DNA of 37,759 nucleotides, from the IMG/VR virus record IMGVR_UViG_3300028883_000087, positions 1-37,759 of that record. The stretch is one strand, 5' to 3'. Within the stretch, counting starts at the first letter, position 1. Each line of letters starts with the position of its first letter. Position numbers and translations under genes: made by a program. The notes under the pieces are model-generated. The model made no database searches, was not told where the DNA came from, and worked only from the letters and a program-made list of their open reading frames with translations. The DNA is from a virus. Positions 7,083-31,373 of the stretch are shown here, piece after piece.

Positions 7083-8686
7083 ATCTGTTCAACCTTTGTC
7101 AGCGTGTATGGATGGAGGTTCGTCAGGTCGAACTCGTATTGTCTGTGATTCGCGTATGACCCAAGGCGGTACGTCTTTTTGACATAGTTGGTTTTTTCGT
7201 TGTCCGATAGTGTCACTGTTCTTGCTGTCGACCAGTCGTTACCATCATCACGCCACCTGACAGTCATGGTTGCGCTTCCTGCGCTCTGTGCTTCTGTCTC
7301 CTTGAGGAAATAAAGAACAAGATGTCCAACCCTAGCCCTGCCCTGCGTGACGACTCTCGGTGTTCTGATGATTGCGTTGATGTCGTTTCCGTCATCTGTC
7401 TTGTATCTGTAGTCTATTGACTTTATCGTTCCATCTGTTCGATCACCGATGAGGACTGTATCCCACCTCGGAACAGAAGCAACACAATTTCCATCCCATT
7501 TATAGTCGTTTGTGTCCGTTGAGAACCATTCAGACCATGTGTTGTTTGACAGGTTCACAGAAATAGTTTTTTCATCTGATGGAAACTGTAAGATTAAAAA
7601 CGGAACGCCATTCAGGGCAATAAAGTCTCCGATTGCGTCAGACACCCTGGCAAGAGAACTAATAAACGTATCGAGTGTCGGGTTAAGTGGTGAAGGTATT
7701 CTCCCCTGAAGGCTGACAAGGCGCTTATCGTTGTCGATCCAGACGAAAAATCCAACATCTTTACAGTAGGTGAATGAATATGGAGCTAACACACCGTGAG
7801 TTATTGAGCCGTATGAACTACTGACCCAAGGTGTTGATCCGTCATTCTGGAAGATTTCTACTGACCTTGACCCTCCAACATAAACATCTGAGTTTTCAAC
7901 CTTGAGGCATGTTGCATCATCCGGTAGTCCCTCGGCAGACACGTAATCCGAATCCCAATTCCACGGCTCATCAACGACTGAAAACGCCATAAACCCGTAT
8001 GACTCGTCTATTGCTAAAAGATAAGAGTCTGCCACGTCGATGAACTTAACCGTTGTCGGGCAGTCTGCGTCCTCAACAACATCAGCTTTTCCAGACCCAT
8101 ATCTCACCCCACCAGCCCATGCGCTATGAGAACTTCCCGCACCGTCATCCTGCCAATAGGTCGCCCATCCAGATGTAACCCCTGGTTCTATGTCGATATT
8201 ATTATAGATACAGGTATAATCGTTTCCACCGTGGGTGACTTGGCTTGTTGATGGGTGGAGTTCCATAATGTTCCCGCCATTCGCCATGAACAGGTAGTCA
8301 CCGAAGTTCGCCCATGTGACCCTTGTTCCTGAAACCATAGACGTTGCGCCTGAAACATCTGTAATCGCAGCAGAAGATTCAAGAAACAGCCTTGAAGAGT
8401 CTTCAAGGAGTAAGTAATCACCAGACTCAAGTAATAAGACAGACCCAGAAAGATAGGCAGAGTCGGTCATTTTGAACACATCACCGGCACTGATAGCGAT
8501 AACGATTGACTGCTCTTTCCAATCATATATCCCGTCGACAGCAGACGATGAGGAACTATCAATCAGTTCAGATGATCCAATTCTCAACTTTGCCCCGAAC
8601 TGCGTTATGACAACATTTTCAAGGGACTGCCCGTATGGGTCGACTGATTCCTGTTCTGGTAGATTTAAACCAAATGGGATTTCCAT
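7079..8686 (-). CDS. Packaged-DNA stabilisation / tail hub protein, P22 gp10-like
   Basis: 535 residues with an almost all-beta composition. It begins MEIPFGLNLPEQESVDPYGQ, a lead like that of P22 gp10-type proteins, and has repeated hydrophobic strands with many Trp/Asp/Gly turns (WANFGDYLFMANGG, SYLLAIDESYGFMAF, GVPFLILQF), as expected for a beta propeller. It lies downstream of the gp4-like gene in a P22-type order. In P22, gp10 binds the gp4 ring below the portal and helps keep DNA in the head. The assignment rests on order, length (P22 gp10 is 472 residues) and general pattern. Confidence 0.65.
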   Translation of the reverse strand: MEIPFGLNLPEQESVDPYGQSLENVVITQFGAKLRIGSSELIDSSSSSAVDGIYDWKEQSIVIAISAGDVFKMTDSAYLSGSVLLLESGDYLLLEDSSRLFLESSAAITDVSGATSMVSGTRVTWANFGDYLFMANGGNIMELHPSTSQVTHGGNDYTCIYNNIDIEPGVTSGWATYWQDDGAGSSHSAWAGGVRYGSGKADVVEDADCPTTVKFIDVADSYLLAIDESYGFMAFSVVDEPWNWDSDYVSAEGLPDDATCLKVENSDVYVGGSRSVEIFQNDGSTPWVSSSYGSITHGVLAPYSFTYCKDVGFFVWIDNDKRLVSLQGRIPSPLNPTLDTFISSLARVSDAIGDFIALNGVPFLILQFPSDEKTISVNLSNNTWSEWFSTDTNDYKWDGNCVASVPRWDTVLIGDRTDGTIKSIDYRYKTDDGNDINAIIRTPRVVTQGRARVGHLVLYFLKETEAQSAGSATMTVRWRDDGNDWSTARTVTLSDNEKTNYVKKTYRLGSYANHRQYEFDLTNLHPYTLTKVEQI

Positions 8687-21121: not shown

Positions 21122-21157
21122 TTATCTGCTACACTTAAATGTTAGTTCTTTTTTCAT
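21122..21157 (-). pseudogene. N-terminal segment of the interrupted zinc-finger gene
   Basis: Reads MKKELTFKCSR then TAA, in frame with the ORF at 20855-21109. It holds the proper initiation signals (GGGGAG, ATGA overlap with the gene ending at 21154) and the first Cys of the zinc site. A one-base change would restore a 100-residue protein, so this is a nonsense mutation, a sequencing error or a readthrough stop. Confidence 0.6.
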
Positions 21158-21411
21158 TGCGCTCTCCCCGTCTTTTCGAAGAAACGATCTCGCCATAACT
21201 TCCTTGCCTTCTCACAGTGGGCGAGTTGTTTTTTCAGTTCTTTGATTTCATTCCTAAGTTTTTTATTTTGAGTAGACAGACCGCCGCTTTTTGAAAAGTA
21301 GTGGTTAATATCGCTCTGCATTCTATTTCTGCATGAATAGCAAATAAGCTTTGTTGTTTCGCAAAGATAGCTTTCTGATCCACAGTCTGAACATTTTATT
21401 CTTCCTGTCAT
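21154..21411 (-). CDS. Zinc-ribbon coiled-coil protein
   Basis: 85 residues from the ATG at 21411, chosen because it overlaps the stop of the 48-residue ORF (ATGA) and follows GGGAGGAAGG; the longer GTG start at 21477 would run through that ORF. Two CxxC pairs (CSDC at 7-10, CYSC at 24-27) form a zinc ribbon. Residues 45-75 are a Lys/Glu-rich coiled coil (KKLRNEIKELKKQLAHCEKA). Probably a nucleic-acid-binding accessory of the replication operon. Confidence 0.7.
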   Translation of the reverse strand: MTGRIKCSDCGSESYLCETTKLICYSCRNRMQSDINHYFSKSGGLSTQNKKLRNEIKELKKQLAHCEKARKLWRDRFFEKTGRAQ

Positions 21412-21554
21412 GCCGCCTTCCTCCCATGTATTGCCAAGCTCCGCCACTTTTCCTTTAGCTTCTTTTCTTTTCGACACATGCGTTCTGTTTCTGCGAGTGC
21501 AGATTCAAGGTCTTCTATTTGTTTTAGCAAAAGGTTTATTTCGTATTGTTTCAT
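21408..21554 (-). CDS. Small coiled-coil protein, 48 residues
   Basis: MKQYEINLLLKQIEDLESAL followed by AETERMCRKEKKLKEKWRSL is almost one continuous amphipathic helix. An ideal GGAGGATAAA leader lies upstream, 1 base after the helicase stop, and its own stop overlaps the zinc-ribbon start. The tight coupling supports a real gene. Role unknown. Confidence 0.7.
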   Translation of the reverse strand: MKQYEINLLLKQIEDLESALAETERMCRKEKKLKEKWRSLAIHGRKAA

Positions 21555-21555
21555 T

Positions 21556-22785
21556 TTATCCTCCTGCTGCGTAGTCGTATTCTGTTTTTGGTTCTTCTAT
21601 CCTGTTTATCGGGCCATTCCATGTCTGAGGTATAATTCCTGTTTTACCGTGGCGGTTTTTCTCAATAATCAACTCACAATCCTCGACGGGTTCTTTCTTC
21701 TCCCTGTGTAGTAGGATAATCACATCAGCGTCCTGTTCAAGCTGTCCAGAGGATCTGAGTTCATTCATTGTCGGTCTTCCTCCGAGGTTTGATCTATTTA
21801 GTTGGTGAAGGCAAACAACAGGAATGTTGACTTGCTTTGCGATCATTTTGACCTGCTGTGAGGCGTTGGTTATTTTTTCGTATTCCGTTCCCTTGCCCGA
21901 CACAAGACCAAGATAGTCAATGATCAATAAGCCAATGTTGTGCTTGAGTTTTGCTGCTTTTGCTTTTGCTGCTATGGCTTCAATGGTCACGCCTGAACAA
22001 TCGTCAATATAAAGTTTCGCTTCGTTGATAGCTCCTGCGCTTAACGTGAGTTTGTGCCATTCGTTCTCGACAAACAGGCCATTTCTTGCTTTTGATACGT
22101 TGACTTTACTTCGGCTGAGAAGCATTCGTGATATGAGTTGATCGCTTGACATTTCCAGGCTGATAAAGAGAGAGGGAACGTTTTTATCGAGGCATGCGTA
22201 TTCAGCTATCTGCACAGCAAGGGCCGTTTTACCGATTGATGGTCTAGCTGCAACTAGGATCATGTCGGTTTTATGCAGTCCTGAGAGTTCTTCGTCTACC
22301 CTATGGATACCTGTTGGCACTCCGGTAATCTGTCCACGGTTATTAAAAGCAACTTCCATGCTGTCAAGCGCACGCTTAAGTGGTTTTGAAGCGTGTTCAG
22401 CGGTTGTGGTCTGTTTTTCCTGAAGGCTTGATTCTATCGCTGCTCTCATTTCGTCAACGCTATCAAGGCCGTTCAGTGTTCTTGTGAGTTTTAAATATCT
22501 GTTACGCTCGACGTACTCTTTAAACTTCGTCAGCATGTATGGCAGGTTTGCAACGGTAAAACATTCATCTAGAAGCTCTGACATATAATCACTCGGAAGT
22601 GTCCGGTCTTCTGAGAGGATAGTGACAACATCAGGAGTGACATTTTTCTGATAAAGAGTTTCGATAATGGAAAAGATTCGCTTATTCGTTTCAACCTGGA
22701 AGTCATCAACAGAAACAACGGTTAGAATATCTGAAACGACTTCTGGATAAAGACATGCACCTAAAATATATTTTTCAAGGTTCAT
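21556..22785 (-). CDS. dnaB: Replicative DNA helicase, DnaB-like
   Basis: 409 residues. The N-terminal DnaB domain has EKYILGACLYPEVVSDILTV, the linker helix is near 130-150, and the RecA-like domain has TGVPTGIHRVDEELSGLHKT, Walker A ARPSIGKT (about 182-189), SLFISLEMSSDQLISRML, Walker B GLLIIDYLGLV, VCLHQLNRSN (motif H3-like) and LRSSGQLEQDADVIILLHRE (arginine-finger region). All main DnaB motifs are present. It unwinds phage DNA at the fork. No primase or polymerase gene is visible, so host enzymes must supply these. The ATGA overlap with the loader-like gene fits a shared role. Confidence 0.92.
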   Translation of the reverse strand: MNLEKYILGACLYPEVVSDILTVVSVDDFQVETNKRIFSIIETLYQKNVTPDVVTILSEDRTLPSDYMSELLDECFTVANLPYMLTKFKEYVERNRYLKLTRTLNGLDSVDEMRAAIESSLQEKQTTTAEHASKPLKRALDSMEVAFNNRGQITGVPTGIHRVDEELSGLHKTDMILVAARPSIGKTALAVQIAEYACLDKNVPSLFISLEMSSDQLISRMLLSRSKVNVSKARNGLFVENEWHKLTLSAGAINEAKLYIDDCSGVTIEAIAAKAKAAKLKHNIGLLIIDYLGLVSGKGTEYEKITNASQQVKMIAKQVNIPVVCLHQLNRSNLGGRPTMNELRSSGQLEQDADVIILLHREKKEPVEDCELIIEKNRHGKTGIIPQTWNGPINRIEEPKTEYDYAAGG

Positions 22786-23006
22786 AATAGAGTCCTGTGG
22801 TCGCTACCAACCTCCATGAAATCTGCTATTGTTGGAAATCTCTTGCAGTTAAGGATTAAAGTCTCTACAGCATATTCAAACCTCTTATTGTCAAATTCTT
22901 TATTGAGGTATTTCCAATAAATAGAAAGTCTATTTTCTGGCATTTCATAACCAAAAGCTGCTTCAAGCTGCGTTATTTTCTTCTTGAAGAAATTTGAATC
23001 TATCAT
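22782..23006 (-). CDS. Small helicase-loader-like protein
   Basis: 74 residues, helical: IDSNFFKKKITQLEAAFGYE, RLSIYWKYLNKEFDNKRFEY, then LILNCKRFPTIADFMEVG. The W-x(n)-F...CKRFPTIADF pattern resembles small phage proteins that bind and load replicative helicase (G39P/loader-inhibitor type), which also have a conserved FPT-like segment. It lies between the initiator and the helicase with overlaps on both sides and GAGGAG upstream. Confidence 0.7.
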   Translation of the reverse strand: MIDSNFFKKKITQLEAAFGYEMPENRLSIYWKYLNKEFDNKRFEYAVETLILNCKRFPTIADFMEVGSDHRTLL

Positions 23007-23709
23007 CTTGATTCTCCTCTTCTATCTCATCTTCCCATCGTTTATTATTAAGCCACTTTGTAGCATGTGGAATATATTTACCGTTCTCTTTTGTCCAATC
23101 ATGTGTTTTTTTCTGGATAGAAAGCGATTCCATTATTTCCGTAAAGTGTTTGTGGTTTTTCTTGAAACTTTTAAATGCCTCTTGTTTTGCAACCTTCTTT
23201 GGATACTCAGACCAAAACTCAATGAACAATTCATTTACATTTACTTCTTCCTTTACTTCTTCCTTTGTGGCATTACCTCCAGATGAAACTTCGTTTATGT
23301 CTGAATAAATTGTGTTTTCGTATGAATCTATTGAAATTAAGAGATATTTCTTAACAACGTAAACAACTTTTTTCTTTTTTGCTGCTTCAAAATATCTTTT
23401 TTGAACAGCCCTTGATGTGAGTATTTTGTGTTTTTTTGCAATTCCTAAATCGAATATATCACGCTCTAAACACACCTTTATGCAATCTGAAATGTCATTT
23501 AATCCAACATCAATTCTTTTCTTTATTAACAAGTGTGTATCTTTGTTGTCTCTAACAAAATACCCCTCATTCTGATAAATCATTTGCCAAATAGTGATTA
23601 AAACAGACAAGCCAAGTGCGCCAGTTTCGATGATATACATTTCTATTTTTTCATCGAATTGACAGTCTATGGGGAAGTAATCAATCCCTTGTTTGGTTGG
23701 TCTAGCCAT
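22963..23709 (-). CDS. Replication initiation protein, Lin1244/DnaD-like
   Basis: 248 residues from the ATG at 23709; GGAG lies 8 bases upstream, and the longer reading from 23757 would start inside the leader hairpin. Residues 1-95 match the Lin1244/Lin1753-type domain (RPTKQGIDYFPIDCQFDEKI, ALGLSVLITIWQMIYQNEGY), a winged-helix fold at the start of phage initiators. The C-terminal third, LFIEFWSEYPKKVAKQEAFK and YIPHATKWLNNKRWEDE, is the DnaD/DnaT-like tail that contacts helicase loaders. It is the first gene after the attenuator-like leader. The oriV may lie in or near this gene. Confidence 0.8.
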   Translation of the reverse strand: MARPTKQGIDYFPIDCQFDEKIEMYIIETGALGLSVLITIWQMIYQNEGYFVRDNKDTHLLIKKRIDVGLNDISDCIKVCLERDIFDLGIAKKHKILTSRAVQKRYFEAAKKKKVVYVVKKYLLISIDSYENTIYSDINEVSSGGNATKEEVKEEVNVNELFIEFWSEYPKKVAKQEAFKSFKKNHKHFTEIMESLSIQKKTHDWTKENGKYIPHATKWLNNKRWEDEIEEENQDDRFKFLQEENNAA

Positions 23710-23833
23710 GATTGGGACTCCAGACACAAAAAAGGCCCACAGAGCGCAATGAACCAAGGGAAGGTGTCTGGTCTTCCATAGGAGTATTAACGCTCTGTGA
23801 GCCGGGGGGAATTATAGCAAATTTGTTGTTCAT
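23702..23833 (-). CDS. Leader ORF of the replication operon
   Basis: A 43-codon ORF starting MNNKFAIIPPGSQSVNTP with GGAG 6 bases upstream. It runs through both middle arms of the leader inverted repeats and the terminator U-tract, and stops (TAG) 8 bases inside the initiator gene, overlapping its ATG. Translating ribosomes would unfold the terminator and couple to the initiator. It may be a regulatory leader peptide instead of a functional protein; codon content gives no further support. Confidence 0.45.
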   Translation of the reverse strand: MNNKFAIIPPGSQSVNTPMEDQTPSLGSLRSVGLFCVWSPNHG

Positions 23834-23868
23834 TTCATACTCCATTTATTTCTTGAAGACCAGACCTT
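23728..23868 (-). promoter_or_regulatory. Attenuator-like leader with interleaved inverted repeats
   Basis: On the minus-strand transcript four arms occur in the order A, B, A', B'. A (23868-23855) pairs with A' (23776-23761) over GTCTGGTCTTC/GAAGACCAGAC plus 4 bp beyond a 2-base bulge. B (23803-23791) pairs with B' (23746-23734) over 12 of 13 bases. B' is followed directly by six U (23733-23728), so B:B' is an intrinsic terminator with a 44-base loop. A begins at the predicted transcript start. The arms interleave, so both stems together would make a pseudoknot; otherwise they compete. Confidence 0.7.
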
Positions 23869-23871
23869 ATC

Positions 23872-23900
23872 TTTATACCAAAACACCATTCAAATGTCAA
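23872..23900 (-). promoter_or_regulatory. Promoter of the replication operon
   Basis: TTGACA (23895-23900), a 17-base spacer and TATAAA (23872-23877) on the minus strand: a near-perfect sigma70 promoter. The start point falls at about 23866-23868, the first base of arm A of the leader structure. An inverted pair AACAACAT/ATGTTGTT (23899-23906 and 23956-23963) lies around the -35 side and could be an operator. Confidence 0.8.
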
Positions 23901-23961
23901 CAACATAGCACAAGATATTGTGGTTATAATTGGCTTTTTGCTTTTTTGGTACTAGATGTTG

Positions 23962-24798
23962 TTATGCTGCTTCGTTGATCTTTCTTCGCATTAATGCTGG
24001 CCTTGTCCATTGTCTCTGCCACCTCATCCAATCTCTCGACATTATCCCGTCTGCGTCACGATAAAGCATTGCCATCGGCATGAAACCAGCCTGAATCGTT
24101 TGGTACATTCTCTTTTCTGCCTGTTCAAATGTGTCTTTTGGATAGCCACACAAAACGTAAGCCCTTAGTTGATGGTGTATTCTGAACCCTGCTGTTGATA
24201 ACATATCACCAGAGTTAATTAGTGGTTCAAGATCGTCGGGAGTGTCATAGGCAAAAAACAACTGTTTTGGTTTAAGTTTATATATTTCTTCACAGTGCCA
24301 CGGCTTTAAAAGTGCCGCCTCTAGCCCACCAGTAAATTCAACTGGCTTTTTATATTTTTTTTTCCCAACTTCAAGCATATTAAAAACTCTTTTTATGTGA
24401 TCATCAGAGCAAGCTAAAATATTGTCATCAAGTAGGTTATACCCTTCAGTTATTGGTAGTTCTCTAATTGCGTTTCCTTCTCTTCTCCAGACAGAGCAAA
24501 ACCAGCATTTATTTGGACACCCTCTTGACGTAATGACGTATCCTTTTTTTGTATACATTCCAGGAATAAAGTCTTCGCCCATACTATTCATTGCGGGTCC
24601 GCCAACCTTAACTTTAGCTACTCTATCCCACTGATACGCTAATTCTTCAGCCCTTTGTATATCCCACGTAAAAGCAACTGATATATGTATTTCTTCAGCG
24701 TCATCAAAAAAGCCAGGAGGTTCATTTATCCTCACCAGATCATCGGATGGAGTAGCCTTTGTTCTGCGCGGGAAAACCCTAATTATTCTTCTGACCAT
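23962..24798 (-). CDS. Radical SAM protein of phage type
   Basis: 278 residues. TSRGCPNKCWFCSVW gives a Cx3Cx2C iron-sulfur site (Cys94, Cys98, Cys101), the radical SAM signature. Later FTGGLEAALLKPWHC (near 155) resembles the SAM-binding GGE motif, and LFFAYDTPDDLEPL, LRAYVLCGYPKDTFEQAEKR and a C-terminal RWQRQWTRPALMRRK recur in a stand-alone radical SAM family carried by many temperate phages. The first 60 residues (RIIRVFPRRTKATPSDDLVR, EIHISVAFTWDIQRAEELAY) resemble a B12-binding-like Rossmann half without its His motif. The reaction is unknown. It overlaps a deoxyribosyltransferase-like gene by 16 bases, suggesting linked nucleotide chemistry. Confidence 0.88.
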   Translation of the reverse strand: MVRRIIRVFPRRTKATPSDDLVRINEPPGFFDDAEEIHISVAFTWDIQRAEELAYQWDRVAKVKVGGPAMNSMGEDFIPGMYTKKGYVITSRGCPNKCWFCSVWRREGNAIRELPITEGYNLLDDNILACSDDHIKRVFNMLEVGKKKYKKPVEFTGGLEAALLKPWHCEEIYKLKPKQLFFAYDTPDDLEPLINSGDMLSTAGFRIHHQLRAYVLCGYPKDTFEQAEKRMYQTIQAGFMPMAMLYRDADGIMSRDWMRWQRQWTRPALMRRKINEAA

Positions 24799-31034: not shown

Positions 31035-31373
31035 ATGTATTTACGACAAGCAAGGGAGGAAGTTGGCAAAAGCCAAAAAGAGTGTGCCGAATTTGTGAGC
31101 GTCACACAGAAAACAATGTCACAGTGGGAAATGGGAAAATCTCCCCCACCATGTGACGCTGTTATTAAGCTTGCTGATTTTCTTGGAACAACGGTGACAA
31201 AGATATGTTTCGGGGATGATCCGTGTCTTTTCCTGTCGCAGCTAAAGCATATAACTTTTGGTGACGCGAAAAAGATACTAGAAGCCCTTGACCTCTTAGC
31301 AGAAGAAAACATGGAGGAATATCAGGACTACCTGAACACATGTAAAGACTTGTGGTGGCAGTTTAAGTCTTAA
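31035..31373 (+). CDS. XRE-family phage repressor (short)
   Basis: 112 residues. The N-terminal HTH is YLRQAREEVGKSQKECAEFV followed by SVTQKTMSQWEMGKSPPPCD, the classic XRE/CI motif ending in W-E-x-G-K-S. The remainder is a short helical tail (ITFGDAKKILEALDLLAEEN). There is no S24/LexA-like peptidase domain, so RecA-driven self-cleavage is not expected; induction must differ from lambda. AAAGGTGG lies upstream. Opposite in direction to the early operon, as expected of a lysogeny repressor. Confidence 0.85.
   Translation: MYLRQAREEVGKSQKECAEFVSVTQKTMSQWEMGKSPPPCDAVIKLADFLGTTVTKICFGDDPCLFLSQLKHITFGDAKKILEALDLLAEENMEEYQDYLNTCKDLWWQFKS

Follow-up and report, generated by a model that had tools for sequence, protein, structure and literature searches.

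We analyzed a 37,759-nucleotide window (virus record IMGVR_UViG_3300028883_000087, positions 1 to 37,759), by which we mean the whole stretch of DNA under study, and focused on a leader on its minus strand that is flanked by a radical SAM gene (24798-23962) and a replication operon. The operon begins with the gene of a Lin1244_N-type replication initiator, followed by a small gene and the gene of a DnaB-type helicase. As the window also encodes an integrase and an XRE-type regulator (31035-31373), the phage is probably temperate. The following features were annotated in the leader and the operon:

23872-23900, minus strand: promoter P1, TTGACA-17-TATAAA with a TGn extended -10; sigma70 score 11/12 plus the extended -10
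23855-23865, minus strand: arm A (GUCUGGUCUUC), with which the RNA is predicted to start; complementary to A' over 11 bp with no mismatch
23837-23843, minus strand: arm C (GGAGUAU), at the Shine-Dalgarno site of the leader ORF; 7 bp with C'
23811-23838, minus strand: internal promoter P2, ATGAAA-16-TATAAT with a TGC extension; extended -10 match
23702-23833, minus strand: leader ORF of 43 codons with the Shine-Dalgarno sequence GGAG, spanning B, A', B' and the U-tract, with an 8-nt overlap at the initiator ATG (23709)
23790-23803, minus strand: arm B, 5' side of the terminator; 14 bp with B', 2 of them G-U
23781-23787, minus strand: arm C', complementary to the leader Shine-Dalgarno region; 7 bp with C
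23766-23776, minus strand: arm A'; pairs with A over 11 bp with no mismatch
23764-23772, minus strand: apical loop ACCAGACAC of the terminator hairpin, made partly of A'; unpaired with a probability of ~1.0 in the P2 transcript
23734-23747, minus strand: arm B', 3' side of the terminator; 14 bp with B
23728-23733, minus strand: U6 tract of the predicted intrinsic terminator, directly after B'
23719-23727, minus strand: GUGUCUGG (23727-23720), an 8-nt complement of the A' loop and possibly its second target; overlaps the initiator Shine-Dalgarno sequence GGAG (23722-23719)
22963-23709, minus strand: replication initiator of 248 aa with a Lin1244_N (PF14297) domain; Pfam E=4.6e-17
21556-22785, minus strand: replicative DnaB-type helicase in the operon of the initiator; Pfam DnaB_C E=3.4e-72

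The radical SAM gene upstream of the leader belongs to phrog_9298 and has 46 relatives with 45-67% identity in IMG/VR. Within 19-32 kb of the window, we found no iteron array suggesting an origin, and the tandem repeats there were short and consisted of 2-3 copies.

Promoters and pairing arms of the leader

The preliminary description had placed a near-perfect sigma70 promoter ahead of the leader, and P1, with its score of 11/12, was indeed the best sigma70 match on either strand across all 37.8 kb of the window and was equalled in 0 of 300 shuffles. Its predicted +1 (23866/23865) is the first base of arm A, in agreement with the proposal that the 5' end of the RNA serves as one of the arms. 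P2 was one of three sites in the window scoring at least 10/12 with a TG in the sigma70 scan, and its predicted +1 (23803) is the first base of arm B; the underlying TGNTATAAT was found in 0.3% of shuffled leaders. Directly upstream of the P1 -35 lies a near-palindrome, CACAAGATATTGTG (23909-23922), which is the sole match of its spacing class in the window and a possible operator. The signal for an XRE operator common to P1 and the control region was not significant (p=0.21).

On the minus strand, the arms were present in the interleaved order A-B-A'-B' that had been described. The 14 bp of B:B' are followed by six U (23733-23728), which bears out the intrinsic terminator proposed for this position, and the predicted terminator loop is long, ~42 nt. 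The 7 bp of C:C' lengthen the A:A' helix and cover the Shine-Dalgarno sequence of the leader ORF. An interleaved terminator of such size was found in 0 of 5000 dinucleotide-shuffled leaders and 0.03 times per whole-window shuffle. The leader RNA also folded better than its shuffles (z -2.85; z -1.4 with the folded stretch shifted to the initiator ATG). Separately, part of the terminator B' region (23754-23742, minus strand) is a ~13-nt perfect complement to 21153-21165, the 3' end of the gene at 21154-21477, and the complement sits there in a 29-nt inverted repeat of 76%.

Folding the leader to the end of the U-tract under constraints, which covers nested structures only, gave near-equal energies of -36.1 kcal/mol for A:A' with C:C' and -38.9 kcal/mol for B:B'. 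Among truncated transcripts, A:A' with C:C' was present in every fold from 23766 on, and was replaced by B:B' once B' was complete. It had been suggested that A:A' could either compete with the terminator or lock into a pseudoknot with it. Competition fits these energies, as well as the loop lengths in two leaders from other phages (L120 and L159, below), while a locked pseudoknot of A:A' and B:B' is a possible structure in the window leader.

Leaders of the same plan in other phages

The leader had no Rfam match in any of six records (the window and L158-L162), and a search of 23600-24000 at the gathering threshold and with E-values up to 10 returned chance matches only: a group I intron (E=0.13) and snoR14 (E=3.3). 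An Rfam tRNA in L160 (341-419) is located upstream of the replication region and outside the leader, and we rejected it as an unrelated sequence. When the leader sequence was searched for among phages, plasmids and IMG/VR patterns, and in 369 genomes from the class to which G001 belongs, short chance matches were all that appeared.

The same plan of promoter, A, B, A', B' and U-tract was nevertheless found ahead of the replication operons of L158-L162 and L120/L121, in each case, as in the window, before the first ATG of the operon. Among the leaders of L158-L162 and L120, sequence similarity did not exceed 12 nt. L158-L162 came from a profile search for initiator proteins that was blind to leaders. 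Their initiators are diverged Lin1244-type proteins with the N-terminus MARPKKxGLDYFPVDV, and the regions upstream of them are conspicuous for promoters and for U-tracts near the ATG. The N-terminal parts of these initiators are 61-72% identical, and the leaders have at most 12 nt in common. L120 and L121, two records with an identical leader, were found by a scan of all fetched sequence; the L120 leader precedes an HNH gene and an initiator with 57% identity. L015 and L063, selected with a promoter term added to the scan, are probable further members, and the probable leader of L063 (4870-4977) precedes an MT-A70 methyltransferase, not an initiator. L063 also contains a second candidate leader (7187-7340) with TTGACA, a strong hairpin and T6, followed by a 71-aa ORF.

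Of the 65 real regions directly before initiators, 4 passed the architecture scan with one threshold set, compared with 1 of 13,000 shuffled regions, and all 4 were among the five MARPKK-type initiators. The first scan design, considering Watson–Crick pairs only, missed L160 and L162, and the second design missed L159, which passes with a variant threshold set (null 0.0003 per region). When 2.0 million strand-bases were scanned blind, the highest-scoring four distinct matches (65, 61, 51 and 49) were all located ahead of Lin1244-initiator operons. Six shuffles of the scanned sequence gave maxima of 42-50 and a mean of 0.5 matches at 49 or above. As the arms of the members were picked for complementarity, their pair counts are descriptive, and the weight is carried by the shuffles. 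The scores of L160 and L162 (40) and L159 (43) fall within the background of the blind scan, and the assignment of these leaders rests on their position.

In most members, A' is found in the apical hairpin of the terminator fold, with L162 and L120 having it only partly in the loop. Transcription is predicted to start 0-10 nt before A in the window, L120 and L159-L162 and 34 nt before it in L158; the P1 matches of L120, L159, L160, L161 and L063 were no better than those of shuffles. Across the window and the members, the energy of B:B' was 2.8 to 13.4 kcal/mol below that of A:A'. The gap from A' to B' is 3 nt in L120 and 6 nt in L159 and, as this is too short to bridge a 12-bp A:A' helix with ease, the loop lengths suggest that A:A' and B:B' are probably mutually exclusive in these two leaders. 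C:C' extends over the leader start site in both the window and L120, and the promoter scan found P2 in none of the other members.

The close relatives of the initiator (L001, L002, L004, L008, L010, L036 and others) were mostly without an interleaved leader, which indicates that the attenuator leader is optional, and mostly carried another gene just upstream of the initiator. In L006 (1364-1540), TTGACA-17-TATAAA precedes the initiator as in P1, but there are no interleaved arms and we rejected the region as a member; a small CxxC...CxxC ORF follows the promoter and overlaps the initiator ATG. We further compared Lin1244-type initiators from known phages, gut contigs and one plasmid, and found no match to the architecture upstream of those of Bacillus Pavlov, Paenibacillus PG1, Bacteroides BS-TP4, Dorea DO134P1, Listeria B054, MT838208, MT836335 and pL11995-2. 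In 299 genomes from the phylum that includes G001, a search for the Lin1244_N family gave one match, which was already known, and a DnaB-based search for relatives gave none.

The claim that an attenuator-like leader stands before the replication operon is strongly supported, since other phages have leaders of the same plan whose sequences are unrelated. Intrinsic terminators are common between phage operons, and one located between the radical SAM gene and the initiator could be a plain insulator of the replication operon from the upstream recombination genes, with A:A' being incidental. However, P1 lies upstream of the terminator, and an insulator at this site would block its own promoter; the recurrence of A:A' in independent leaders of unrelated sequence likewise argues against it, and we consider such a role highly improbable.

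Possible roles of leader translation and of RNAs acting in trans

As had been reported, the window leader contains a 43-codon ORF that has a Shine-Dalgarno sequence, runs through B, A' and B' and overlaps the initiator ATG. The ORF of L120 has the same topology, with 44 codons, an 8-nt overlap and no strong Shine-Dalgarno sequence, and that of the probable member L063 is similar, with 36 codons and an ATGA overlap. In L162, the initiator has a 40-codon ORF joined to it in frame, and L160, L161 and L162 have ORFs of 9-11 codons that start from A and stop 2, 2 and 6 nt before B, respectively. L159 has no leader ORF and the ORFs of L015 start no earlier than B, such that a leader ORF is found in most but not all members. 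The window ORF lacks a regulatory codon run, and its codon usage is not gene-like, for which reason the leader peptide itself may be unimportant.

The arrangement of these frames is consistent with ribosome-controlled attenuation, in which leader translation would be the switch: a ribosome covering B (or A) would prevent the terminator or the antiterminator from forming, and re-initiation at the 8-nt overlap would tie the translation of the initiator to that of the leader. This explanation draws on the window ORF, which carries a Shine-Dalgarno sequence and crosses B-A'-B' into the next start codon, and on its kin in L120, L063 and L162, on the short ORFs ending before B in L160, L161 and L162, and on C:C' over the leader start in the window and L120. 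We nevertheless regard it as unlikely: there is no shared leader-ORF design, with L159 and L015 departing from it as above, 40-codon open frames are not uncommon, and the window ORF has neither a regulatory codon run nor gene-like codon usage. As to the idea that translation decides the output of the replication genes, the ORF topology of the window is repeated in L120 and probably L063 but is missing from some members, and translation may therefore be a modulator rather than a general switch.

From P2, we predicted a 76-nt RNA (23803-23728) that ends at the terminator and folds at -35.6 kcal/mol with the apical A' loop ACCAGACAC fully open. The complements of this loop adjoin both Shine-Dalgarno sites of the window, A upstream and GUGUCUGG downstream, which was jointly the case in 0.1% of shuffles. 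A separate sense-strand sRNA of this kind could be the main product of the locus, in the manner of the P4 CI RNA or the P1 C4 RNA; B:B' would then be a constitutive terminator, the A' loop would repress the translation of the leader and the initiator in trans, and A:A' pairing in cis would be secondary. The perfect extended -10 of P2 with its +1 at the first base of B, the stable fold with an open loop and the complements beside both Shine-Dalgarno sites agree with such a role, but P2 is found in no other member and the energy of the full duplex between the P2 RNA and the initiator RBS was no better than that of shuffles. We find an sRNA as the main product quite unlikely.

An antisense RNA from the opposite strand had been named among the possible deciders. 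In nine leaders, no opposite-strand promoter rose above the shuffles in a search with the sigma70 consensus (p 0.75-0.99), and a trans factor is more likely to be an RNA of the sense strand that carries A'. Counter-transcripts control the choice between a pre-emptor and a terminator before the rep genes of pT181 and pIP501 (PMC5703833), and the window and the members are alike in having a terminator immediately upstream of the initiator together with a competing upstream pairing. The pre-emptor of these plasmids overlaps a terminator arm, whereas here A pairs with the terminator loop, and they are regulated by an antisense RNA made from the opposite strand, for which the best promoter in each member was no better than in shuffles. 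Despite the similar logic before a rep gene (PMC5703833), the binding of an opposite-strand antisense RNA to the leader is an extremely improbable explanation.

A proposed attenuator and its precedents

On balance, we favor a cis-acting bistable RNA attenuator of the replication operon, one of several with the same plan and including a feedback in trans, as a reasonably probable explanation for these sequence patterns. The P1 RNA would begin with arm A, and the pairing of A (and C) with A' (and C') would enclose B and leave B' without a free partner, allowing the polymerase to read through; A:A' would thus be the antiterminator. With A unavailable, B:B' would form and transcription would end at the U-tract just before the initiator gene. 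The terminator fold would expose A' in its apical hairpin loop, and we infer that the terminated leader RNA, or the 76-nt P2 RNA of the window, could use the loop to capture A of nascent transcripts. The capture would remove the antiterminator, and in the window phage also cover the leader Shine-Dalgarno sequence, and force termination. More genomes and more leader RNA would then result in less initiator, a copy-number-like brake, possibly with superinfection immunity as an extra layer, while translation of the leader ORF would tune the choice of fold and couple to the translation of the initiator.

The trans step is the weakest part of this model, because P2 is not conserved and A competes in cis for its own A' in the full-length leader. 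Given that P2 is specific to the window phage, the step would in other members rest on the terminated leader, an RNA that might be too unstable for action in trans.

The preliminary description did not recognize this type of switch, although the P4 CI RNA and the attenuation of pT181 and pIP501 are precedents for it. We know of no RNA-level control of replication initiators in phages with Lin1244-type initiators, and the literature collection that we searched contained no paper with both DUF4373 and phage. In a control with P4, the regions that we take to be seqA and seqB shared a 9-bp complement and were ~200 nt apart, compared with ~80 nt here. In the P4 CI RNA system, premature termination via seqA and seqC keeps the replication genes off (PMC4825925). 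The likeness would consist of a sense-strand regulatory RNA of the same leader, an upstream target (seqA in P4) and premature termination (PMC4825925), and the sequence here allows a same-strand, leader-encoded RNA either as the P2 transcript or as the terminated leader. Processing gives rise to the P4 CI RNA, which is flanked by two targets, whereas the leader here is not known to be processed and has A' within a predicted intrinsic terminator.

The isrK-orf45-anrP mRNA of prophage Gifsy-1 provides a second comparison, with one promoter giving rise to a short terminator-ended RNA, IsrK, and a readthrough mRNA with a coupled small ORF (PMC4825925). As with IsrK (PMC4825925), the leader here would give short and readthrough RNAs from one promoter, with alternative structures and a small ORF coupled to the regulated gene. 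In contrast, IsrK stimulates translation in trans and regulates an antirepressor. Its small ORF follows the terminator, whereas the leader ORF here passes through it. The C4 antisense RNA of P1 and P7, likewise from a phage leader, acts by blocking a small ORF to which the regulated gene is coupled. It controls an antirepressor, and the C4 covariance model of Rfam had no match in 23600-24000, either at the gathering score or with E-values up to 10. In IncFII tap-repA and IncI-alpha repY-repZ, a leader peptide overlaps or adjoins the start of the initiator, with translational coupling and an antisense RNA acting on leader translation. Those systems act on translation with an opposite-strand antisense RNA, whereas here the terminator is central; references to them are given in PMC10724649. 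By this comparison, the leader would in parts work like the P4 CI RNA, Gifsy-1 IsrK and pT181 attenuation, and it appears to fit the full definition of none of them.

How RNA controls replication initiators has been well studied in plasmids and the satellite phage P4. Judged from its sequence, the leader described here is probably a real, undescribed RNA switch that limits phage DNA replication, and it offers a compact and directly testable case. That a recurring attenuator is visible only by its folding plan, and not by Rfam or sequence searches, suggests that such brakes have been overlooked in phage genomes. More tentatively, the leaders could represent a family of sense-strand RNA attenuators on Lin1244-type (DUF4373) initiators, in which the terminated leader would be a diffusible inhibitor whose terminator loop reads the 5' end of the next transcript, forming a self-counting copy-number brake with neither a counter-transcript nor a protein. 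If the trans step is true, phages would have the copy-number logic of plasmids in a simpler, sense-only device, and this could account for superinfection exclusion at the level of replication.
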